64,000 bases of DNA from Chryseobacterium gleum. GTDB lineage: Bacteria > Bacteroidota > Bacteroidia > Flavobacteriales_D > Crocinitomicaceae. The translations under genes were made by a program, and so were the position numbers. Below the pieces are notes generated by a model. It ran no database searches and was not told the DNA's origin. It worked only from the letters and a program-made list of their open reading frames with translations. The DNA lies in assembly GCA_945888625.1 (NCBI GenBank), contig CAMDAH010000002.1, positions 124,001 to 188,000 of the forward strand. Direction: 5' to 3'. Positions 46,884-64,000 of this stretch are shown here, in pieces. Numbering within the stretch: the stretch's first letter is position 1; each line of letters opens with the position of its first letter.

Positions 46884-47507
46884 ATGTACATAGATATATC
46901 ACTTAAAATCGAAAAATTAGTTACGCAATTTGACTTAATTCCTGTCTCAAGAAACTTGGCTTTGCGTCAATTAGCAACGCACATTTTAAGTCATCGGAGT
47001 CAATCTAGTTCTTTACAGCTTCTTTTTGTTTGCACCCACAATTCAAGGCGAAGCCATATGGGGCAAGTATGGGGGCAGTTAGCAGCGAATTATTATAAGG
47101 TGGAAAATGCCAACTCTTTTTCTGCGGGGACAGAAGTGACAGAACTAAATTCCAATGTGATAGAAATGCTTCAAAAAGTTGGTTGCAAGGTGTCGACTTT
47201 TCAAAAAGTATCAAACCCAGCTTATTTAATTGAATTTGGAGAAAATCAATCGCTTACTTGTTTTTCAAAATTGATGGAACACGAAGCAAATCCAAGGGCC
47301 GATTTCTTTGCCATTATGATGTGTACTGAAGCAGAGGCCAATTGTCCTTTTGTTCCTGGAGCTATAGCCAGAATTGGCTTACCTTTTGATGATCCTAAAG
47401 CTTACGATAACACGCCTATGGTTAGCGATGCTTATCTTTCTACTTTTGAAGAAATTGGCGTTCAAATTCTATATCTTTTTAATCAAATTAAGCATGACAA
47501 CTACTAA
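46884..47507 (+). CDS. Low-molecular-weight protein-tyrosine-phosphatase/arsenate reductase-like protein
   Basis: '[21 protein letters not shown]' (CX5R(S) P-loop) in an ars operon. Confidence 0.85.
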
Positions 47508-48525
47508 AAGACTTTCTTTTCTAGATCGATATCTCACAGGGTGGATTTTTATTGCAATGGCAATTGGAATTGGAATTGGGTATTTCTTCCCCTCTCAAAA
47601 CCAAAATGTAAAAGAAGAAGTTTTCAATCTACCCCTTGCACTTGGATTAATAATTATGATGTATCCTCCGCTTGCGAAAGTGAAATATGAGTCGATGGGG
47701 ACTGTTTTTAAAAACGTGAAGGTTTTGGTATTGTCGCTGGTGTTAAATTGGGTCGTTGGTCCATTGTTAATGTTTGTTTTAGCGATAACTTTTTTAAAGG
47801 ATCTTCCACATTATATGGTTGGTTTAATCATAATTGGACTTGCTAGATGTATTGCGATGGTAATTGTTTGGATAGAATTGGCGAGTGGAAACCGTGAGTA
47901 TGCTGCAGGATTGGTAGCAATGAATAGTATTTTTCAAGTCTTCTTTTTTAGTTTTTATGCTTTTATTTTTCTTTCGTTTCTTCCAAGTCAAATGGGGATT
48001 GAAGCAACAAATGTTTCTGTCGACATGCTCGAAATTGCCAAAACGGTTGGTATTTATCTCGGTATACCTTTTTTATTAGGATTCACTTCTCGCTATTTAT
48101 TGATCAAGATCAAAGGGGAAGCTTGGTTCACCTCTTCTTATTTGCCTGCGGTTTCCCCCTTGACTTTAATCGCTTTGCTCTTTACTATTATGTACATGTT
48201 CTCGCTAAAAGGAGAAATGGTGTTAGCACTACCAGTTGATGTGGTAAGAATTGCAATTCCGATGATTATATACTTTGTTTTGATGTTTGTTATCAGTTAT
48301 TTAATGGCGAAAAAGTTTGGCGCAAAACAAGATGAGGTAACGGCTATTGCTTTTACAGCGACAGGAAATAATTTTGAATTAGCTATTGCTGTTTGTATTG
48401 GGGTTTTTGGCATCAATTCCGGCGAGGCATTTGCAGGTGTTATTGGTCCCTTGATTGAAGTGCCTGCGCTAATCGTATTGGTGAAACTCGCAAATTATTG
48501 GAATGCGAAATGGAAAAGTAGTTAG
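47494..48525 (+). CDS. arsB: ACR3-family arsenite efflux transporter
   Basis: '[28 protein letters not shown]', '[34 protein letters not shown]', '[20 protein letters not shown]'. Start set to ATG at 47494 (14-bp overlap with upstream gene). Confidence 0.93.
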
Positions 48526-53374: not shown

Positions 53375-55207
53375 TTACTCAACAATTATTTTTTTGACGT
53401 AGTTTTTGCCACCAATATTTATTTTAAGTGTGTACATTCCAGATGGAAATTTGGAGACATCTATTTTTATCGACTTTGAATTGGGACGCAAAGTCCGTAA
53501 TTCCCGCCCTGTATCATCATTGATGTGAATAGTTCTTATTACCGCCTCACTTTGTATTTGTAGAAAGTCACTCGTCGGATTTGGAAATACGGAAAATGGT
53601 AGCGTGGATTCATCAATAGAACCGATGCAGTCATTCACAACGACTTCATAAGTGGCAGTTGCCTGTTGCCCTGTCAAATTATCGGTTACTGTTAATTGAT
53701 AGCTCGTTGTCTGATTTGGACTTACCGAAAGTTGATTTTCTGATGTGCCATTATTCCAAAGTAAATCAAGGGAATCAGATCCGCCTGATATGGAGCTTTG
53801 CAAGGTAATTGTTTCGCCAATGCAGATAGTATCTGTGGAGTTTTGTAGCGCTAAATTCTTTTTTAGGATGGTAAACTCATCTAAAATTTGTCCATTAGAT
53901 CGTAGGTATTTAGCATCTAAGCGGTTTCGATAAACATCCATGATGAAAGAGCCATAGACGCCACTTCCGTTGTCGCCAAAATGAAAAACAGGATGATTCA
54001 TTGTACCGTCGTTGTTTTCACTTCCCGAATTACCGCAAACTACATAAACGGTTCCATCGCTATTAGTAGCAAATTTATCTTTCACGTAAGCATTCCCTTC
54101 ACTGAACTTACCATTCGTTCCATTTACTAAATTCGTGGCAGGGTTCCACGTAGAGCTATTACCAAAATGGTCTTTGATAAGGTAACTTCGCTCAAACACA
54201 TGGCTGTGTCCGCATACAACAAGGTCAACGTTGTATGACTCTAAAACGGGCACAACGTCTTCGCGCATCGTTTTCATGACAAGCTCCGTAGCTCCATCAG
54301 AGTCATGTGAGCCTTTTGAGTAAGGAGGTTGATGGAAATAAGCAATCGTGAAATCTTGCTGGTTTTGCGACAAATCATCGTGTATGTAATCAATCATGCG
54401 CTGAACTCCCGTTCCGGTTTGTAAGAAATCAAATACCTCGGAATTTAATGAAATAAAATGAACGTTACCGTAATCATAAGAATAGAAAACTTCTAAGTTG
54501 GACGGGTAGCCCCCTGCCTCTGCTTGCTCTGGAACATCGACTATATCGAAGTAAGGTCCTTCATGGTTTTCCAAAGGAATGTTCGAATACGGGATTCCTA
54601 AAAAGGCACTTTGAGCCCAAATTTCATTGTAATCATGGTTTCCCGGTGTTGGCATAAATGGTAACCATGAGAAAATATCCATAAATCCGTTGAGACCAAA
54701 TAGTTTACTTTGGTATTCCGCATCTTTTCCGTCGTTGTATACGTTGTCACCTAACCACAACCACACATCGGTCGCTTGGTTTCCTGTCCAATTTAAATAG
54801 GAAGATTTTACAGCTATTTGTCCAGCATTACCTTTTCCAAAGTCACCAATGGCCCAAATTCGTATCGAATCCTGTGATCCAGAAACAGGATTTGTTTTGA
54901 ACCGATGCATGCTGGTATTCCCACCATAAATTTGTTGATCGCCAACGGCATAGAAATAATTGCTTGATGAAGGCAATCCAGTAATCGTTACCGTATGATC
55001 GGTGGTATTTGAATTCCCAAGCGCCATAGCAGATAAATTTGTCGTATCGGGTCCGTACCATACTGTTGAATTCGTGGCAATGTTGCTTCGCCATTTTATT
55101 ACAATGCTGTTGGGCGTGGGGGTTTGTAAATAGGGGCCACGAACAACTGTTGCAATTTGTGCCGCAAATGGAAAGCTTAATAAAAGAAAAAATAGTAATA
55201 ATCGCAT
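53375..55207 (-). CDS. Secreted metallophosphoesterase (purple acid phosphatase-like) with T9SS C-terminal sorting domain
   Basis: 'VVRGPYLQTPTPNSIVIKWRSN', 'GDFGKG', 'LGDNVYNDG', 'PGNHDY', 'CGHSHVFERS'; C-term 'FSVFPNPTSDFLQIQSEAV...FPSGMYTLKINIGGKNYVKKIIVE'. Confidence 0.92.
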   Translation of the reverse strand: MRLLLFFLLLSFPFAAQIATVVRGPYLQTPTPNSIVIKWRSNIATNSTVWYGPDTTNLSAMALGNSNTTDHTVTITGLPSSSNYFYAVGDQQIYGGNTSMHRFKTNPVSGSQDSIRIWAIGDFGKGNAGQIAVKSSYLNWTGNQATDVWLWLGDNVYNDGKDAEYQSKLFGLNGFMDIFSWLPFMPTPGNHDYNEIWAQSAFLGIPYSNIPLENHEGPYFDIVDVPEQAEAGGYPSNLEVFYSYDYGNVHFISLNSEVFDFLQTGTGVQRMIDYIHDDLSQNQQDFTIAYFHQPPYSKGSHDSDGATELVMKTMREDVVPVLESYNVDLVVCGHSHVFERSYLIKDHFGNSSTWNPATNLVNGTNGKFSEGNAYVKDKFATNSDGTVYVVCGNSGSENNDGTMNHPVFHFGDNGSGVYGSFIMDVYRNRLDAKYLRSNGQILDEFTILKKNLALQNSTDTICIGETITLQSSISGGSDSLDLLWNNGTSENQLSVSPNQTTSYQLTVTDNLTGQQATATYEVVVNDCIGSIDESTLPFSVFPNPTSDFLQIQSEAVIRTIHINDDTGRELRTLRPNSKSIKIDVSKFPSGMYTLKINIGGKNYVKKIIVE

Positions 55208-55307
55208 AGCTTTATTTTTGCATATATTTAATCAAAATTATGTACTAAGCTTTTCTTAAATGTTAAGGTAATTTTAAATAAAACAATATTTTTTCACACT
55301 TTTGCAG

Positions 55308-56444
55308 GTGCTTAAATTTATACTATTCTTTTTTTATTTTGGTTTTATTCAATTGGCTATATGTCAAGTGAAAAATCCAAATTTTGTCCGGCGATACATC
55401 AATAAGTTTACTAATGATACGACAGAAAAGGCGGGCTTCCAAAACTTAATCTATCCAATTGCAGCTTATGCACCCGAAACTAAATGGGAGTTTGGTGCGA
55501 GTAGCGTCCTAATCGGTTATGCAAAAAAAGACACAAATAATCGACTATCTGAATTGAGTGTTTTTACATTTTTTACAACCGAAAGGCAATATGGAGCAAC
55601 GATTGAACATGCACTATATGCCGATAAAAATAAGTGGTTTCTCTTGGGGAAGTTGAAAACCCAAAGTTTTCCCCTATCCTACCATGGTATTGGAGCGAAC
55701 AGTGCTAAAGAAAAAATTGCTGTTGTTGAATCTTTCACCTTCAATTGGAAAGAGCGTATACTTCGGAAAATTTGGCGAGATTTTTTTATCGGTCTTGAAT
55801 TGGATTTTCAAAGTTTAAGCCGAGTAAACTTTAAATCGTACACTAATGATGTTTCCCTGTTGACACCTATAGGCTTTCAGGGGTCGAACAATTTGGGGAT
55901 TGGTATTGGACTATTGCACGACAATAGGCAAAATGTGTTAAACGTGCGAAATGGACTTTTTGCAGAAACAGCCTTTTTAAGTTATCGTAAGCGACTGGGG
56001 AGCATCAATAATTTTAGCACATTATTTACTGATTTGAGGTATTTTATTCCAATTCGAACCAGAAATGTGTTGGCAATTCAATCCGTTGGACAATTTACCC
56101 TTGGTGACGCGCCATTCAATCAGTATGCGCTGATGGGTGGAGAAATGATGATGAGGGGTTATTATTTTGGGAGGTTTCGAGACAGAAACTTCATTAGTTT
56201 ACAGACAGAATACAGAATGCTTCCCTTGTTTTTTGCTAAAAAGTTCGGTCTAGCAGTTTTTGCCTCCACGGGAATTATTTATGATAAAGCAATAAACATC
56301 AGTACCATGAACTTAAAATATGCTGGTGGTGCCGGGATTCATTACCTTTTATTCCCCAAAAAAGACGTGTGGACACGCTTTGATTTTGCTGTCAACAATG
56401 AAGGTAAAACCGGCGTTTATCTTTACATGGGTTGTGCGTTTTAG
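55308..56444 (+). CDS. BamA/TamA (Omp85)-like outer membrane beta-barrel protein
   Basis: Signal-peptide-like N-terminus; 'GGEMMMRGYYFGRFRDRNFISLQTEYRM' is the Omp85 surface-antigen motif. Start codon uncertain (TTG 55302 or GTG 55308). Confidence 0.75.
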   Translation: MLKFILFFFYFGFIQLAICQVKNPNFVRRYINKFTNDTTEKAGFQNLIYPIAAYAPETKWEFGASSVLIGYAKKDTNNRLSELSVFTFFTTERQYGATIEHALYADKNKWFLLGKLKTQSFPLSYHGIGANSAKEKIAVVESFTFNWKERILRKIWRDFFIGLELDFQSLSRVNFKSYTNDVSLLTPIGFQGSNNLGIGIGLLHDNRQNVLNVRNGLFAETAFLSYRKRLGSINNFSTLFTDLRYFIPIRTRNVLAIQSVGQFTLGDAPFNQYALMGGEMMMRGYYFGRFRDRNFISLQTEYRMLPLFFAKKFGLAVFASTGIIYDKAINISTMNLKYAGGAGIHYLLFPKKDVWTRFDFAVNNEGKTGVYLYMGCAF

Positions 56445-56856
56445 GATGAATTGGGTTGTTAATTTAACCTCTTTACGGGGAATTTATCTACTTTTTTTGA
56501 ATAACATGCGAGTTACTTATCGTTGACTTATTTTATATTTTCTTTTGGATTATGTTTCCTTAATTGCAAATACGGGTGTTCAAATAATAGATTTAAGAAT
56601 TAAATTAAATCATGTAAAGTTTAGAACATTAAAATTCAATTATTTTGAGGGACTTGATAGTTTCTCTCTAAATTATTGGTTTGATGAGTTGATTGAAATC
56701 AAAAACATAGCAAAATTTATTAGAAAGTATGACCTTGAACAATTGGTTAATTAAGAATATCATTATCATCAGCTTGTTATGAAAACATCTTTAATATAAT
56801 ATTTTATTAACATGCCGAAACTAAAGTATATTTATTTTTACTTAAAAAAACAAAAT

Positions 56857-58080
56857 ATGAAACTTCAATTTACCCTCGTATCTTTATTCTTCACCTTAAT
56901 CATGTTTGCTTCTCAACCTAGAAAAGTATTGATTATTGGAATAGATGGTGTTCGTACGGATGCTTTACAACAAGCAAACACTCCCAATATTGACGCCTTG
57001 ATTGCTTCAGGTTTTTATACCTATGAGTCCTGGCATGAGGGTATAACAGTATCCGGTCCGTCATGGTCTACCATAATGTGTGGAGTAGAATTTCCGAAGC
57101 ACGGAGTAACCAGCAATTCGTATTCAGGAAGCAACTACAACCAGTACCCCTATTTTACCCGCCTTGCTAAAGATTGTCTACCTGACTTATATGAAGTTCA
57201 AATCGTGCAATGGGCTCCTATGAGCGATAATGTGTACAACGATGGATGGGACCAAAAAATTAAAGTGTGTGATGGATGCGGCGCCAACAGCGTTTCTGCT
57301 GCGCAAACCCAACTGGCCAATCCTAATTTGGATGTACTTTTTGTATATTTTGATGAATGCGACTTAACAGGGCATTCTATTGGATTTAACCCTGCGAATC
57401 CGGCCTACATTGCTGCTATTCAAACCGTTGACGGTCATGTAGGTAGCATATTAAACGCCTTGTACAGTCGTCCGAATTATGCCAATGAAGATTGGATTAT
57501 CTTATTAACCACCGATCATGGCGGCATTGGAACTGGGCATGGAGGAAATACCAATTCAGAACGCAAGATTTGGTGGGTAGGAAGTGGAAACAACCCTGTT
57601 TCAAAACAACTCACCAATGTTGCTGATCCTGGAAGTTATGTAATGGGAAATCATAACGCACAAGTCGCGCTTAACAATCCGTCGCAAGCCGATATCGCGG
57701 TAACAGCACTTGATCATTTATTTAGGGGTACTTCCTGCAATCCTACTGACCCAGCGTTTAACTTAGATGGAACCTCATGGTTGGATTCCTTGCATTCAGA
57801 TCCTATTGTTGCTACTACTGAAATTCAAGAAGATTTCATAAAAATGTACCCCAATCCTGCAACGGATATTCTGAGCATTTGGTTTGAGAATAATGATCAA
57901 CAATCGATATCCTACGTGATTTATAACCTTCAGGGAAAGGCTGTGAAAGAAGAAGAGAATGCTGAAGCAATTAATGCAAATAAGCTCAATATCGATTTAT
58001 CCAAGCTTAGACGAGGAAATTACCTCTTGAAATTTCAAATTGGAGGTAAGCTTCTCACCAAGCCCTTCATTGTAGAATAA
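56857..58080 (+). CDS. Alkaline-phosphatase-superfamily hydrolase (type I phosphodiesterase/nucleotide pyrophosphatase-like) with T9SS C-terminal domain
   Basis: 'KVLIIGIDGVRTDALQQANTPNIDALIASG', 'SGPSWSTIMCGV', 'TTDHGGIGTGHGG'; C-term 'IKMYPNPATDILSIW...LRRGNYLLKFQIGGKLLTKPFIVE'. Start set to signal-peptide ATG. Confidence 0.88.
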   Translation: MKLQFTLVSLFFTLIMFASQPRKVLIIGIDGVRTDALQQANTPNIDALIASGFYTYESWHEGITVSGPSWSTIMCGVEFPKHGVTSNSYSGSNYNQYPYFTRLAKDCLPDLYEVQIVQWAPMSDNVYNDGWDQKIKVCDGCGANSVSAAQTQLANPNLDVLFVYFDECDLTGHSIGFNPANPAYIAAIQTVDGHVGSILNALYSRPNYANEDWIILLTTDHGGIGTGHGGNTNSERKIWWVGSGNNPVSKQLTNVADPGSYVMGNHNAQVALNNPSQADIAVTALDHLFRGTSCNPTDPAFNLDGTSWLDSLHSDPIVATTEIQEDFIKMYPNPATDILSIWFENNDQQSISYVIYNLQGKAVKEEENAEAINANKLNIDLSKLRRGNYLLKFQIGGKLLTKPFIVE

Positions 58081-58253
58081 TTGTGTGCTTCTCAAGCGAT
58101 CATAGGTAAAAATATTAGGATAGCATTGAAGATTTTTTCGTTGCTTTCCGTTTATCAATCTATAACTATGATTTATTCAACAAAGATGATCAAGCGTTTC
58201 AAATTTAATATAAAGGGAATAATAAGTTTGGAAAATCATCTTAGTTTAGGTGT

Positions 58254-59528
58254 GTGAAAAAGGTTCCGAATCAAAGTTTATTGTTTTTCTTTTGGTCATT
58301 TACGGCGGTTTTCATGGCCTATTCCACCATGTACGCCTTTAGAAAGCCTTTAAATGCAGGGACCTATGAAGGCGAAACTGTTTGGGGATTTGGATTAAAA
58401 TCGATATTACTTACGAGTCAAATTGTCGGGTACATGCTTTCCAAGTTTATTGGAATCAAAGTGATTTCTGAATTATCTAACACCTCTCGAAAACGCTTAA
58501 TACTTTACCTTATTCTTTTTGCTCATGCCGCACTTTTACTTTTTGCATTAGTGCCTGTTCCATATAAATTCATATGTTTATTTCTCAATGGTTTGCCGCT
58601 GGGCCTCGTTTGGGGGGTGCTTTTTTCGTTTGTAGAAGGAAGGAAACTAACTGAAGCCTTAGCTGCAGGTATCGCCATTGGCGCCATTCTCTCCTCAGGT
58701 TTGGTGAAATCCTTGGCAAGATACCTAATGGATAATGCCTACTTCAATGTACCAGAATTTTGGATGCCCTTCGCGGTTGGTCTTATCTTCCTACCTATAT
58801 TGCTGTTGTCTATTTGGATGTTACAACAAATACCCGAACCTGATGCAGAAGACATCCATCTCAAGACCAAACGGTCTGCCTTAACTGGAAAAAAACGAAT
58901 CCGTTTGTTATTTCTTTTTTTGCCGGGTATACTTTCGTTTGTTTTTTTGTACTTGTGCTTAACGGTATTTCGTGATTTTCGAGATAACTACGCTGTTGAA
59001 ATTATGGAAGCGTCTGGCGAATTCAATTCAGGAGTTTTTATAAAAACCGAACTTCTCGTTGCATTTACCGTTTTGCTAACGACCTCATTGGTCATTTTTG
59101 TAAAAAATAATTCCCGCGCTTTTTTTCTGTGCCAATGGCTCATTTTATTGGGGTTTATCCTTATGTTTCTAGCAGGTATAAGCTTAAGTAATGGGCAAAT
59201 TTCGTTTATAAGTTTTACCATTTTAAGCGGAATTGGCATGGCTATGGGTTACGTGCCTTTTCAAATCGTACTCCTTGAACGTTTTGTTGCGGCTTATCGA
59301 ATCGAAGGAAACGTTGGATTCCTTATGTATTTATCTGATAGTTTTGGATATTTAGCAAGCGTTATTCTCATTTTTTCAGGGGAATTTGGTTGGTGGAATT
59401 TTAACAAAAGTGACCTAATTGTCCAATTGGCGATTTACGGCAGTGCTGCGGGATTGGTGTTTTCGATTTTTGGTCTTATTTATTTCCATCTGCGTGGAAC
59501 TGTCTATGAAAAAGCATTAAATATTTAA
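58254..59528 (+). CDS. MFS-like transporter, DUF5690-like
   Basis: Polytopic; 'FFWSFTAVFMAYSTMYAFRKPLNAGTYEG' resembles organophosphate:Pi antiporter-type MFS N-termini; GTG start. Confidence 0.75.
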   Translation: MKKVPNQSLLFFFWSFTAVFMAYSTMYAFRKPLNAGTYEGETVWGFGLKSILLTSQIVGYMLSKFIGIKVISELSNTSRKRLILYLILFAHAALLLFALVPVPYKFICLFLNGLPLGLVWGVLFSFVEGRKLTEALAAGIAIGAILSSGLVKSLARYLMDNAYFNVPEFWMPFAVGLIFLPILLLSIWMLQQIPEPDAEDIHLKTKRSALTGKKRIRLLFLFLPGILSFVFLYLCLTVFRDFRDNYAVEIMEASGEFNSGVFIKTELLVAFTVLLTTSLVIFVKNNSRAFFLCQWLILLGFILMFLAGISLSNGQISFISFTILSGIGMAMGYVPFQIVLLERFVAAYRIEGNVGFLMYLSDSFGYLASVILIFSGEFGWWNFNKSDLIVQLAIYGSAAGLVFSIFGLIYFHLRGTVYEKALNI

Positions 59529-59572
59529 CACTCAATTCATGTTTTAGTCACCTTAGGATTTTAAATTTACTT

Positions 59573-60529
59573 GTGAATTTCAGACTTATTATAATTTTAT
59601 CTTTCCTTTTTTTGTTGTTGAACAGCATGCTTGTGACTGGTCAAAAAACAAAGAAAGTTTTAATCATCGGAATTGATGGTTGTCGTTCAGATGCTTTATT
59701 GAAGGCCAATACACCAACAATTGACTCGTTAATTTCCATTGGATTATTTACTCAAAGTTCATGGCATTTGGGAAAAACTAAATCCGGACCTGGATGGTCG
59801 AGTATGTTAACAGGCGTTTGGGATGCGAAACATCGCGTGCACAACAACCGATTTTCGGGACATCAGTTCGAGAAATACCCTTTTTTTCCAGCATACCTTA
59901 AGGCCTTGGATAGCACGATCAATAGCACTATAATCATAAGTTGGAAATCGCTAGCAAACCTTGCGCCGAAATTTGGTTGGGATCAAAGTATTTTCGCATA
60001 CAACGACGAAGAATGTTTGCAAAAGACCTTACAGTGCCTTTCAACCCGAGATCCAGAAATCATTATGGTACATTTTAATGATGTAGACCACATTGGGCAC
60101 CTTAGTGGTTTTGAACTTGACAACCCAAGATATATCAAAGCAATTGAAGGGTTAGATGAAAAAATAAAACGCCTGTTCTATTACCTTAATAACCGCCCTA
60201 ATTTTACCAATGAAGATTGGTTAATACTCTCGTCCACCGACCACGGAGGAACAAAGCATGGGCATTCCAATAGTAGTGTAATGGAACGTAAAATTTGGTG
60301 GTTGGGTGTGAATTCAGCACTGCCTAAAGGTCAGCTAATTTCACAAGATCCGGGTTCATTTTATTACCCGGAAGTTCCTTTCTGTAGCCATGCTCAAACG
60401 CCAACACCCTATATTGTAGATATTGCAGCAACTGCCTTAGATTTTCTCATGCCCAATTCAAAGGAATTACCCTTAACTTTGGAAGGCAAATCATGGCTTA
60501 ATAAACCTATTTCTAATGCGAAAAATTGA
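59573..60529 (+). CDS. Alkaline-phosphatase-superfamily hydrolase without T9SS domain, paralogue of 56857-58080
   Basis: 'KVLIIGIDGCRSDALLKANTPTIDSLISIG', 'SGPGWSSMLTGV', 'SSTDHGGTKHGHS'; signal peptide MNFRLIIILSFLFLLLNSMLVTGQ; GTG start; ends at 'GKSWLNKPISNAKN'. Confidence 0.87.
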   Translation: MNFRLIIILSFLFLLLNSMLVTGQKTKKVLIIGIDGCRSDALLKANTPTIDSLISIGLFTQSSWHLGKTKSGPGWSSMLTGVWDAKHRVHNNRFSGHQFEKYPFFPAYLKALDSTINSTIIISWKSLANLAPKFGWDQSIFAYNDEECLQKTLQCLSTRDPEIIMVHFNDVDHIGHLSGFELDNPRYIKAIEGLDEKIKRLFYYLNNRPNFTNEDWLILSSTDHGGTKHGHSNSSVMERKIWWLGVNSALPKGQLISQDPGSFYYPEVPFCSHAQTPTPYIVDIAATALDFLMPNSKELPLTLEGKSWLNKPISNAKN

Positions 60530-61322
60530 CACCATCATTTTTGATTGGGCGGGTACCTTAGTAGATTTTGGGTGCATGGCTCCAGTTAAGGTCTTTATTG
60601 AAGTTTTTAGGGAAGTAGGCATAGAAATTACGGAAGCCGAAGCACGCGAACCCATGGGCCTCAGTAAGCGTCAGCATATTATAGCCATTATAAAACAACC
60701 GCGTGTGCAACAATTATGGATAGAACATTTCGGTGAACCTGCAACGAAGCGGGATATTGATATACTATACAAAGCATTTGAGCCGAAACTTTTAGCCTCG
60801 GTTTCAGACTACGTTGAACTCATTCCTGGCGTAGTTGAGACCTTGAACAAATTGCGAAAGCAAGGCATTAAAATCGGTTCTACCAGCGGTTACAGCCGCC
60901 AAGTGCTGGATAAAATCATCTCATTGGCCCAAGCACAAGGCTTGGAGTTAGATTACTCTGTTGCAGGAGATGAATGCAAGGAAGGAAGGCCATCTCCCTT
61001 TATGATTTTTAGAAACATGGAACATTTCAGTACCTATCACACAGATTCCGTGATCAAAGTAGGTGATACGGTTTCCGACATCGAAGAAGGATTGAATGCG
61101 GGGGTATGGACTGTGGCTGTTATTACAGGTAATGAAATTGGAATGTCGAACGGCGATTGGACTGCGCTATCCACTGAGAAAAAGGAAGAAATAATGCATC
61201 ACGCCAAGGATAATTTTAATCGTTACGGTGCACATTTCATCTTAAAAGACCTGAACAGACTCATAGAAGTTATCGAAGAAATTAATCTGATTTTAATTTG
61301 TGAAACCAATAATCAATACTAA
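60516..61322 (+). CDS. phnX: Phosphonoacetaldehyde hydrolase (phosphonatase)
   Basis: 'IIFDWAGTLVDFGCMAPVKVFIEVFREVGIEITEAEAREPMGLSKRQHIIAI', 'GSTSGYSRQVLDKI', 'VIKVGDTVSDIEEGLNAGVWTVAVITGNEIG'. Confidence 0.92.
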   Translation: MRKIDTIIFDWAGTLVDFGCMAPVKVFIEVFREVGIEITEAEAREPMGLSKRQHIIAIIKQPRVQQLWIEHFGEPATKRDIDILYKAFEPKLLASVSDYVELIPGVVETLNKLRKQGIKIGSTSGYSRQVLDKIISLAQAQGLELDYSVAGDECKEGRPSPFMIFRNMEHFSTYHTDSVIKVGDTVSDIEEGLNAGVWTVAVITGNEIGMSNGDWTALSTEKKEEIMHHAKDNFNRYGAHFILKDLNRLIEVIEEINLILICETNNQY

Positions 61323-61325
61323 CCT

Positions 61326-62579
61326 ATGAAAACAGTTACAATTTTATTTTTTACAGCCTTTAGTTACGGAATTATGGCGCAATGCCAACCGAGTCCTGCA
61401 ATTACTAACATTTACCAACCCATTGGTGCACTAAACTCACCTAGCGGTGGGCTGCTTACCCCTTCGAACTTTTATGCGAGTCCTGGACAACCCTTTAGCC
61501 AAGTGGTTACGGCAATGGCTCCTGAACAATTGACGGTTGCTAACCCTTTAGGATTTCCACCGACCATTACGGTCAATGTCAATTGGATTAGAGTAACGAA
61601 CATTCAAAATCTTCCTTCATGGGTATCCTATCAATGTGGTGGGCAACTTGACCCCTCGGATCCGTGCAAAATGGCTTATCCAACATGGAGTTGCGTAAAC
61701 GCCTATGCCAATACCGCAAATGGAACAGTACCCTTGAATGAAGTTCCAGGGAGTGTGTATTCGCTAGAAGTCATTGTTGACGCAAATGCGACTATTCTTG
61801 GCACCCAATCGAATTACAACGGAGGAAACATCAGCTTGTATATTTTAAATAGTTTGGTCAATAGCCTTTCCTTTGATTCTTGTAACGGAGGAACAATAAG
61901 CACTACTACTTCAGGGGGATTTAACGATCCAGGAGCCTACGTTTACACATGGAGTAACGGACAACAAACACCTCAAATCAGTAACTTACAAAACGGGTGG
62001 TACACCTGTACAGTGTTGGACCAAGCCACAGGATGGGTTACTACCGATAGCGTTTTAGTAAGTGGGATTCAGCCCGTAATACTAGTGAACGATATTGCCG
62101 TAACGCAACCTACAAACACTAACAATGGCGCAATCAACGTTGCAGTAAGTGGGGGAAATGCTCCATTTAGCTATGCTTGGAGCGGTCCTAATGGTTTCAC
62201 CGCTTCCACTTCCTCTATCACTAATTTGTTTGGAGGTACTTACATCTTGACTGTTACAGATGCCTCGGGTTGCGTTGCTACCAAAACGTATTTTTTAAGT
62301 GCTTTGGGCATTTCAAATAATTCTATAGGACACATTAAGTTATTTCCAAACCCTGCAAATGATTACATTATCGTAAAAGGATTAAAAAGCTCAGAAGCAA
62401 CCGTTGAAATCGCCATTTATTCTTTAGATGGTGCTCGTGTAGCGATGAAAACCTATCACGTAAATGACTCGAAAGTTCAGATTGAAACAGCTGAGTTGGC
62501 CGATGGAAAGTACATGCTTGAAATAATACAATCCAACTTAAGTATTTTCAGGCCTTTTGTTATTAAGCACATGGAATGA
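61326..62579 (+). CDS. Surface protein with SprB-like repeat and T9SS C-terminal sorting domain
   Basis: 'NDIAVTQPTNTNNGAINVAVSGGNAPFSYAWSGPNGFTASTSSITNLFGGTYILTVTDASGCVATKTYFL' (SprB repeat); C-term 'IKLFPNPANDYIIVKG...LADGKYMLEIIQSN'. Confidence 0.85.
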   Translation: MKTVTILFFTAFSYGIMAQCQPSPAITNIYQPIGALNSPSGGLLTPSNFYASPGQPFSQVVTAMAPEQLTVANPLGFPPTITVNVNWIRVTNIQNLPSWVSYQCGGQLDPSDPCKMAYPTWSCVNAYANTANGTVPLNEVPGSVYSLEVIVDANATILGTQSNYNGGNISLYILNSLVNSLSFDSCNGGTISTTTSGGFNDPGAYVYTWSNGQQTPQISNLQNGWYTCTVLDQATGWVTTDSVLVSGIQPVILVNDIAVTQPTNTNNGAINVAVSGGNAPFSYAWSGPNGFTASTSSITNLFGGTYILTVTDASGCVATKTYFLSALGISNNSIGHIKLFPNPANDYIIVKGLKSSEATVEIAIYSLDGARVAMKTYHVNDSKVQIETAELADGKYMLEIIQSNLSIFRPFVIKHME

Positions 62580-63268
62580 TAAATAATTTTCCAAAAGGAA
62601 TAGAACTCTTCGTTTTTGATATGGCGGGGACAACGGTTGACGAAACCTTTGCGGTTCATGATGCCTTAATTGCAGCATTCGCCAGCGTTGGAAAAAACAT
62701 CACTCGGAACCAAGCGAACCTTTCGGTCGGCGTACCAAAACCTTTGGGAATTGAGTCCATTTTAATAGCTTTCTTTGAACCTGCCAGCTCCGATGAAGTA
62801 TATAAACTTCACAATAAATTTCTCGAAAATATCAATAAATATTACTTGGAAAAACAAATTCAGCCCACTGAAGGAACGCTTGAACTATTCCAAGCACTGC
62901 GATCTAAAGGCATAAAAATAATGTTAGATACCGGCTTTTCAAGTACCACAGCGGATATCATTATTCAACGTTTAGGATGGGAAGCCCTTATTGATGGGAG
63001 AGTTTGCAGCGACGAAGTACCAAACGGAAGACCTCATCCCGATATGATTTATCAGGCCATGGAACAGTGTGGAATTCAACATCCAAACCATGTTGTAAAA
63101 GTAGGCGATACACCAGTCGATATCCAACAAGGGAAAAATGCAAATTGCGCTTACATCATTGCTGTGGATGCAGGAACTTTTCCCAAAGAGTCTTTAGAAG
63201 CTGAAAACCCTGATTTGATCGTAAAAAAATTGAATGAAATCATCCCTCTTATTGAAGCCCATGTATGA
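62576..63268 (+). CDS. Phosphonatase-like HAD hydrolase (PhnX-like, cf. TIGR03351)
   Basis: 'IELFVFDMAGTTVDETFAVHDALIAAF', 'MLDTGFSSTTADIIIQRLGW', 'VVKVGDTPVDIQQGKNANC'. Confidence 0.85.
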   Translation: MINNFPKGIELFVFDMAGTTVDETFAVHDALIAAFASVGKNITRNQANLSVGVPKPLGIESILIAFFEPASSDEVYKLHNKFLENINKYYLEKQIQPTEGTLELFQALRSKGIKIMLDTGFSSTTADIIIQRLGWEALIDGRVCSDEVPNGRPHPDMIYQAMEQCGIQHPNHVVKVGDTPVDIQQGKNANCAYIIAVDAGTFPKESLEAENPDLIVKKLNEIIPLIEAHV

Positions 63269-64000
63269 TATAGCAATAATTGGTAGCGGTGTCTTGGGAA
63301 GTTTTCACGCATTTCATGCGGCGAAGGTTGGATTGCGCGTTGCCGTCTTTGAAAAAGACTTAATGCCCATGGAATCGAGCGTTCGTAACTTCGGGCAAGT
63401 GGTACCATCTGGGTTTGCTCCAGGACGATGGCATTATTACGGAAGATATTCCACCAAACTTTATCTCGACTTACAGCAAAAAATAGGCATTGGAGTGCGT
63501 AATAACGGTTCGGTTTACCTCGCAAACACCGCTTGTGAAGCCCAGCTATTGGATGCCTTGCACGAGAGCTTCAACCAAGTAAATTATTCGTCGGAACCGA
63601 TGAATCAGCAGCAAGTTTTATCCCGATGGTCGTCCATGAAAAAGGACTATGTTCGAAGTGGCCTATTTTTCCCTCAGGAAGTTTCTGTGGATCCGCGCAT
63701 CATGATTCACAGAATTCACGGGTACATGATCGAACAAATGGGTGTGGACATGCATTTTCTTTCCCCCGTTATCGAATTGAACGACCGTGGTGATAAGGTT
63801 GAAATTTCCACGAGTAATGGAAAAAAAATTCAAGCGAAACAGGTGATTGTTTGCAATGGCCGAGATTTTAAAATACTATTTCCTGAGCTCTTTAACACTT
63901 CTGATATCGAGGTGTGTAAACTTGCCATGATGGTGACAAAACCTATGCCCGAAATTGAACTCAAAGGAAATATTCTTACCGGTCTCACGATTCGTCGTTA
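63261..64000 (+). CDS. FAD-dependent oxidoreductase of phosphonate clusters (cf. TIGR03364), C-terminus cut by window edge
   Basis: Open frame from ATG 63261: MYDIAIIGSGVLGSFHAFHAAKVGLRVAVFEKDLMPMESSVRNFGQVVPSGFAPGRWHYYGRYSTKLYLDLQQKIGIGVRNNGSVYLANT...; dinucleotide-binding GxGxxG. Absent from ORF track (no stop in window). 8-bp overlap with upstream HAD gene. Confidence 0.85.
   Translation, partial: MYDIAIIGSGVLGSFHAFHAAKVGLRVAVFEKDLMPMESSVRNFGQVVPSGFAPGRWHYYGRYSTKLYLDLQQKIGIGVRNNGSVYLANTACEAQLLDALHESFNQVNYSSEPMNQQQVLSRWSSMKKDYVRSGLFFPQEVSVDPRIMIHRIHGYMIEQMGVDMHFLSPVIELNDRGDKVEISTSNGKKIQAKQVIVCNGRDFKILFPELFNTSDIEVCKLAMMVTKPMPEIELKGNILTGLTIRR

Follow-up and report, generated by a model that had tools for sequence, protein, structure and literature searches.

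A candidate aminophosphonate utilisation operon with a DUF5690 transporter in a Bacteroidota genome

Among the closest described relatives of the gene cluster studied here, which lies at the end of a 64,000-nucleotide stretch of a Bacteroidota genome (the window: contig C2:124001-188000; genome 2.4 Mb, 98% complete), is the PbfD-PhnX pathway of aminophosphonate breakdown. PbfD, the name given to the TIGR03364 family of flavin adenine dinucleotide (FAD) enzymes, oxidises N-methyl-2-aminoethylphosphonate (N-methyl-AEP), and in part 2-aminoethylphosphonate (AEP or 2AEP), to phosphonoacetaldehyde and so replaces an absent PhnW (Zangelmi et al. 2023, PMC10590968); the main text of that study mentions neither Bacteroidota by name nor TonB receptors. 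At the inner membrane, the GlpT-related permease AepP of Pseudomonas putida, a member of the major facilitator superfamily (MFS), is required when 2AEP is the nitrogen source for growth and is encoded beside PhnWAY or PhnWX (PMC8316502). At the outer membrane, the PusCD phosphate utilisation loci of Flavobacterium place TonB/SusCD receptors beside phosphoesterases and are induced by low phosphate (Lidbury et al. 2021, PMC8115612).

The window locus shares with the published PbfD-PhnX pathway a TIGR03364 enzyme accompanied by PhnX and no PhnW, but it adds a second, PhnX-like haloacid dehalogenase (HAD), surface hydrolases, TonB receptors and a transporter of the Pfam family DUF5690. Its nine + strand genes start at 56812 and run to ~6.3 kb beyond the window end, so that about two and a half genes fall outside the window. 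In order, they encode ENPP-like hydrolase a with a type IX secretion system (T9SS) tail, DUF5690, ENPP-like hydrolase b, PhnX, an SprB-repeat protein, the PhnX-like HAD, the TIGR03364 FAD enzyme and two TonB-dependent receptors. Like AepP, DUF5690 is an MFS protein encoded beside phosphonate genes; however, AepP is reported to be 28% identical to GlpT (PMC8316502), whereas the kinship of DUF5690 to GlpT was recovered only by profile-profile comparison. The receptors adjoin phosphoesterases as in the PusCD loci, but those of the window are of the TIGR01782 type without SusD, and DUF5690 is not named in PMC8115612. Indeed, no mention of DUF5690 (PF18943) was found in the literature searched.

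We consider it likely that the locus is an aminophosphonate utilisation operon of a T9SS-bearing member of the Bacteroidota. In the mechanism we propose, surface and periplasmic ENPP-like hydrolases would cut esters of phosphonates, such as lipids or glycans that bear AEP, and free AEP or N-methyl-AEP, a step on which we are evenly divided. The two TonB-dependent receptors would then, somewhat more probably, take the phosphonate or a conjugate across the outer membrane. Judging from genomic association and a shared motif, DUF5690 would with good probability import it across the inner membrane, as a protein distantly akin to the organophosphate:phosphate antiporters (OPA). PbfD would very likely oxidise it to phosphonoacetaldehyde, a reaction established for the family. 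Finally, PhnX would very probably, and the PhnX-like hydrolase quite probably, cleave the C-P bond to give acetaldehyde and phosphate.

The intracellular route

By sequence, the predicted PhnX is a full member of TIGR01422 with the same catalytic residues as its Bacillus cereus counterpart. It matches B. cereus PhnX (2iof) at E 9e-64, and its residues D10, K51, H54 and D184 correspond to the Asp nucleophile, the Schiff-base Lys53, His56 and the Mg-binding Asp186. Similarly, the FAD enzyme belongs, by its profile score, to the PbfD family, and as in PbfD clusters PhnX is found in the same operon with no PhnW in the genome. A genome-wide profile search for PhnW gave a best match of 51 bits against a cut-off of 361, and a PhnW hidden elsewhere in the genome was rejected on this basis; extension past position 64000 gave the two TonB receptors. 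A first-pass annotation made from the letters of the window had recognised PhnX, the FAD enzyme and DUF5690, all of which score above the cut-offs of TIGR01422, TIGR03364 and PF18943, respectively. It had also seen no PhnW and proposed that the FAD enzyme may take its place. This route holds, being supported by TIGR03364 membership and by the published activity of PbfD (PMC10590968), but it is already known for the family.

A class survey covered 395 Bacteroidia genomes, 36 of which encode a TIGR03364 protein above cut-off (PbfD genomes). True PhnX scores above cut-off in only three of these 36, while a TIGR01422-related HAD of at least 80 bits is present in 35 (count from the survey table). 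The Asp nucleophile, Schiff-base Lys and Mg-binding Asp are retained in all 67 PhnX and PhnX-like proteins collected; the Lys position is Ile in another HAD of the source genome. His56 is retained in true PhnX only, and the PhnX-like HAD both lacks it and is ~40 residues shorter than PhnX. Read most simply, PhnX-like HADs would serve as the phosphonatases in PbfD pathways. In other loci of the set described below, true PhnX adjoins PhnW; the genus of the window stands out by combining true PhnX with the PhnX-like HAD and PbfD in the absence of PhnW.

The same pairing can be read differently. PhnX-like HAD and PbfD might act on another aminophosphonate, such as the 1-hydroxy-2-aminoethylphosphonate of the original TIGR03364 proposal, while PhnX acts on phosphonoacetaldehyde made otherwise. 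The two HADs stand side by side in three congeners, which would fit a division of labour of this kind, as would the missing His56 and shorter chain of the PhnX-like protein. However, tested PbfD members produce phosphonoacetaldehyde (PMC10590968), the genome has no PhnW to supply PhnX, and 33 of the 36 PbfD genomes lack a true PhnX, so that the product of PbfD probably goes to the PhnX-like HAD. We regard separate substrates as improbable.

DUF5690 as a candidate aminophosphonate permease

DUF5690 is present in all 36 PbfD genomes of the class survey and in 20 of the 359 others (Fisher p=5e-37); tallied by family, it occurs in 15/15 families with PbfD and 3/63 without. The two genes lie within ~12 kb of each other in 26 of the 36 genomes. 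For the wider neighbourhood we used the 80 best-scoring named loci nearest the window's DUF5690, which are not a random sample and carry a best-score bias of which the class survey is free. A phosphonate gene is found at most 10 kb from DUF5690 in 61 of these 80 loci, and on the same strand within 150 bp in 45. The neighbours include PbfD, PhnX-type HADs, PhnW, PhnY, PhnA, PbfA, PbfC-like FAD enzymes, TIGR03276 HD oxygenases and TIGR03366 dehydrogenases. In Rhodanobacteraceae (Dyella/Rhodanobacter; L123, L137, L140, L150, L153 and L156), DUF5690 stands beside the C-P lyase genes phnF, phnH, phnK, phnM, phnN and DUF1045/TIGR03223, which suggests that it may also feed a C-P lyase route there. 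Additionally, 38 of these loci encode TonB/SusC receptors (33 of the 38 with phosphonate genes) and 17 encode ENPP-like hydrolases.

The AlphaFold model of DUF5690 (pLDDT 93) has an MFS fold, and a structure search with it returned sialin, GLUT4, GlpT and G6PT as top matches, a result that does not discriminate. Profile-profile comparison matched DUF5690 to GlpT/UhpT/UhpC at E 4e-6 over 393 columns, as against E 0.3 for a control profile built from different MFS proteins of E. coli; the DUF5690 sequence profile gave no match in the PDB up to E 10, GlpT chains included. The helix 1 motif YxxxYxxRK is found in 49 of 56 DUF5690 sequences and in GlpT, UhpT and UhpC of E. coli, but in 0/3 controls, and the phosphate-site motif SK of transmembrane helix 2 is found in 50 of the 56. 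The Arg and Lys within YxxxYxxRK take part in phosphate binding in GlpT. Taken with the genomic association, these motifs argue that DUF5690 is probably a general aminophosphonate permease. An MFS fold alone is uninformative on substrate, and the protein might instead carry another solute common to these loci, such as phosphate or a counter-ion. Against this, phosphonate routes of differing chemistry repeatedly have DUF5690 next to them as the inner-membrane transporter (no separate search covered other importer families), and we find transport of such a solute the least probable of the alternatives.

Several other genes recur around DUF5690. A 190-aa XRE-cupin regulator, a candidate aminophosphonate sensor, is encoded in 26 of the 80 loci (L054, L055, L059, L107, L129 and others). 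A ~360-aa protein (cluster c9), which matches nothing in Pfam or NCBIfam, is repeatedly encoded after SusD or close to PbfD in phosphonate loci (L054, L056, L060, L061, L089, L107). TIGR03276 HD-domain oxygenases, which are PhnZ-like, adjoin PhnX-like HADs and DUF5690 in ~30 Bacteroidota loci (e.g. L144:8637-9236), pointing to a parallel oxidative route of C-P cleavage. In a conserved group of loci (L118, L092, L093 and L149), DUF5690 follows a PHP-domain HisJ-like phosphoesterase and lies opposite a two-component-propeller/SpoIIE protein, with no phosphonate genes nearby. Three Chitinophaga loci (L141, L161, L182) have a tight set of XRE-cupin, SusC, SusD and DUF5690 and lack phosphonate enzymes within 10 kb.

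The transport mode of DUF5690 bears on whether the word scavenging fits the locus. As a phosphate antiporter, swapping internal phosphate for aminophosphonate 1:1, it would leave the cell with ammonia or methylamine plus acetaldehyde, and hence with a net gain in nitrogen and carbon, though none in phosphorus; as a symporter it would yield phosphorus. Supply of nitrogen and carbon is favoured by the OPA phosphate-site motif, by the XRE-cupin regulator of those 26 related loci and by the nitrogen-source role of the GlpT-related permease AepP (PMC8316502). On the other side, DUF5690 may be a proton symporter, and the surface hydrolases and TonB receptors resemble the Flavobacterium loci that low phosphate induces (PMC8115612). 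We hold nitrogen and carbon supply to be a serious possibility, if the less likely one. The phosphorus scavenging role proposed by the first-pass annotation is not established, nitrogen or carbon use being also possible.

The surface hydrolases and receptors

Seven catalytic residues of hydrolase a (D45, S81, D184, H188, D235, H236 and H243) are identical in 17/17 complete homologues aligned, and hydrolase b keeps the same seven. The predicted fold of hydrolase a matches NPP3 and ENPP7, the structure search also returns NPP1 and NPP5, and the nearest PDB sequence to the hydrolases is, as a weak match, ENPP7. ENPP7, or alkaline sphingomyelinase, splits phosphocholine off a sphingolipid. The window hydrolases share with ENPP7 and other NPP enzymes the PF01663 fold and the metal-ligand pattern, but differ in having Ser in place of the Thr nucleophile, a T9SS tail (hydrolase a) and only ~20% identity. 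PhnA was considered for these PF01663 proteins and is not supported, as neither of them matched TIGR02335 at E 1e-3; true PhnA is encoded at other loci. The genome encodes the T9SS sortase PorU (1222 bits), and the T9SS C-terminal domain TIGR04183 scores above cut-off in two operon proteins, a combination that marks these as T9SS cargo.

The same hydrolase-receptor pair is found again next to PbfD/DUF5690 in further genera (L073, L076, L079, L083, L116), frequently together with a LamG/T9SS protein, a possible glycan binder, and in many other related loci SusC/SusD pairs occupy the place of the receptors. No SusD was found near the window locus, so that its two TIGR01782 receptors do not form the SusC plus SusD combination of a phosphate (PUS) or polysaccharide (PUL) utilisation locus. 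The likeness to ENPP7 and the recurrence of the hydrolase-receptor pair lead us to propose that the surface ENPP-like enzymes may free AEP from ceramide-AEP or a glycan. This is plausible, a good hypothesis and not a result, and it draws on fold, conserved catalytic residues and recurrence. The ENPP-like hydrolases, TonB receptors and T9SS protein could instead be a general set for scavenging phosphodiesters and nucleotides, common substrates of ENPP relatives, that merely adjoins a phosphonate cluster; the return of NPP1, NPP3 and NPP5 besides ENPP7 would suit such a set. We think this unlikely, as the surface genes overlap or almost touch, are interleaved with DUF5690 and PhnX in one operon, and have their hydrolase-receptor pair repeated beside PbfD/DUF5690 elsewhere.

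Operon extent, conservation and implications

The genes of the operon (Table 1) are separated from 56812 on by 173, 44, -14, 3 and -4 bp and thereafter overlap, in agreement with the compact one-strand run from 56.8 kb first noted in the annotation. That annotation had drawn a single locus from 53375 to 64000. The part from 56812 onward stands as a conserved + strand unit, while 53375-56444 falls outside it. Two genes there were rejected as members: a metallophosphatase on the opposite strand, with 57-72% identical orthologues in congeners that mostly lack DUF5690, and an Omp85-like gene, neither of which is in the conserved cluster.

Table 1. Genes of the operon, with positions in the window (window-equivalent beyond 64000)
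Feature	Position	Strand	Profile matches and signals
ENPP/NPP-type hydrolase a	56812..58080	+	PF01663 72 bits; PF18962 60 bits; TIGR04183; signal peptide
DUF5690 MFS transporter	58254..59528	+	PF18943 433 bits (cut-off 25)
ENPP-like hydrolase b, periplasmic or secreted	59573..60529	+	PF01663 64 bits; signal peptide by inspection; no T9SS tail
PhnX, phosphonoacetaldehyde hydrolase	60516..61322	+	TIGR01422 324 bits (cut-off 220)
SprB-repeat T9SS-tagged surface protein	61326..62579	+	PF13573, PF18962
PhnX-like HAD	62576..63268	+	TIGR03351 174 bits, best family, below cut-off 218.9
PbfD-family FAD oxidoreductase	~63261..64430 (window-equivalent)	+	TIGR03364 361 bits (cut-off 285)
TonB-dependent receptor 1	64423-67368 (window-equivalent)	+	TIGR01782 395 bits
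TonB-dependent receptor 2	~67302-70265 (window-equivalent)	+	TIGR01782-type

Another species of the genus (G397) keeps DUF5690, hydrolase b, PhnX, the SprB protein, the PhnX-like HAD, PbfD and both receptors in identical order, the proteins being 44-69% identical; hydrolase a (73% identity) has been relocated and follows a LamG/T9SS protein at the opposite end. In a further congener (G400), the order is kept at 99% identity or more as far as the contig reaches. The SprB-repeat protein sits at the equivalent position in both (49% and 99.8% identical, respectively). This gene-set conservation exceeds chance, and the neighbourhood is retained across Bacteroidota. Thus neither of the contrary outcomes that the first-pass annotation had named and that could be checked, HAD and FAD proteins outside phosphonate families or an unconserved neighbourhood, occurred. 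DUF5690 is present in two of 12 congeners examined and in none of six further ones; its absence from most congeners makes the locus accessory. The G+C content of the locus (40.2%, against 37.2 +/- 1.3%) is no more than a weak hint of horizontal acquisition. An Rfam search found no RNA element upstream of the operon. Elsewhere in the window, the open reading frame at 47374-48525 resembles, by eye, an Acr3-type arsenite efflux permease.

Several points weigh against an aminophosphonate operon built around an OPA-like permease. The case as a whole is built from sequence, predicted structure and gene context. DUF5690 is remote from PbfD in 10 of the 36 PbfD genomes, on a different contig in seven of these, and roughly one in four of the loci nearest the window's DUF5690 have no phosphonate gene within 10 kb, some of them on truncated contigs. 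The OPA comparison used three OPA sequences only, and none of the NCBIfam OPA models matched the 56 DUF5690 members at E < 1, which limits our claim: DUF5690 would work like an OPA member and is not claimed to be one. ENPP relatives also cleave nucleotides and ordinary phosphodiesters. Lastly, the PhnX-like HAD, which the first-pass annotation had named as such, has TIGR03351 as its best match and carries phosphonatase residues, but falls below the cut-off and is not counted as a member.

We lean slightly towards a broader proposal, in which DUF5690 would be an unrecognised OPA-like permease family that, in Bacteroidota and some Proteobacteria, serves most of the routes by which bacteria are known to break down phosphonates. 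In Bacteroidota, it would be coupled to dedicated outer-membrane receptors and to surface ENPP-like hydrolases that mine phosphonolipids or phosphonoglycans. New here are the PbfD-DUF5690 association, the PhnX-like HAD in nearly all PbfD genomes (35/36) and the occurrence of DUF5690, with its OPA motif, beside many phosphonate routes.

To our knowledge, lipids and glycans hold most of the phosphonate found in organisms, yet known catabolic operons begin at free AEP. The locus and its relatives are a candidate for a complete route, from bound surface phosphonate to cytoplasmic phosphate, in a polymer-degrading phylum. A function is thereby proposed for DUF5690, a Pfam family of unknown function, and for the hypothetical equivalog called 'PhnX-like'. 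Metagenome surveys could then count phosphonate users that are missed by phnW, phnX, phnJ and AepX markers.

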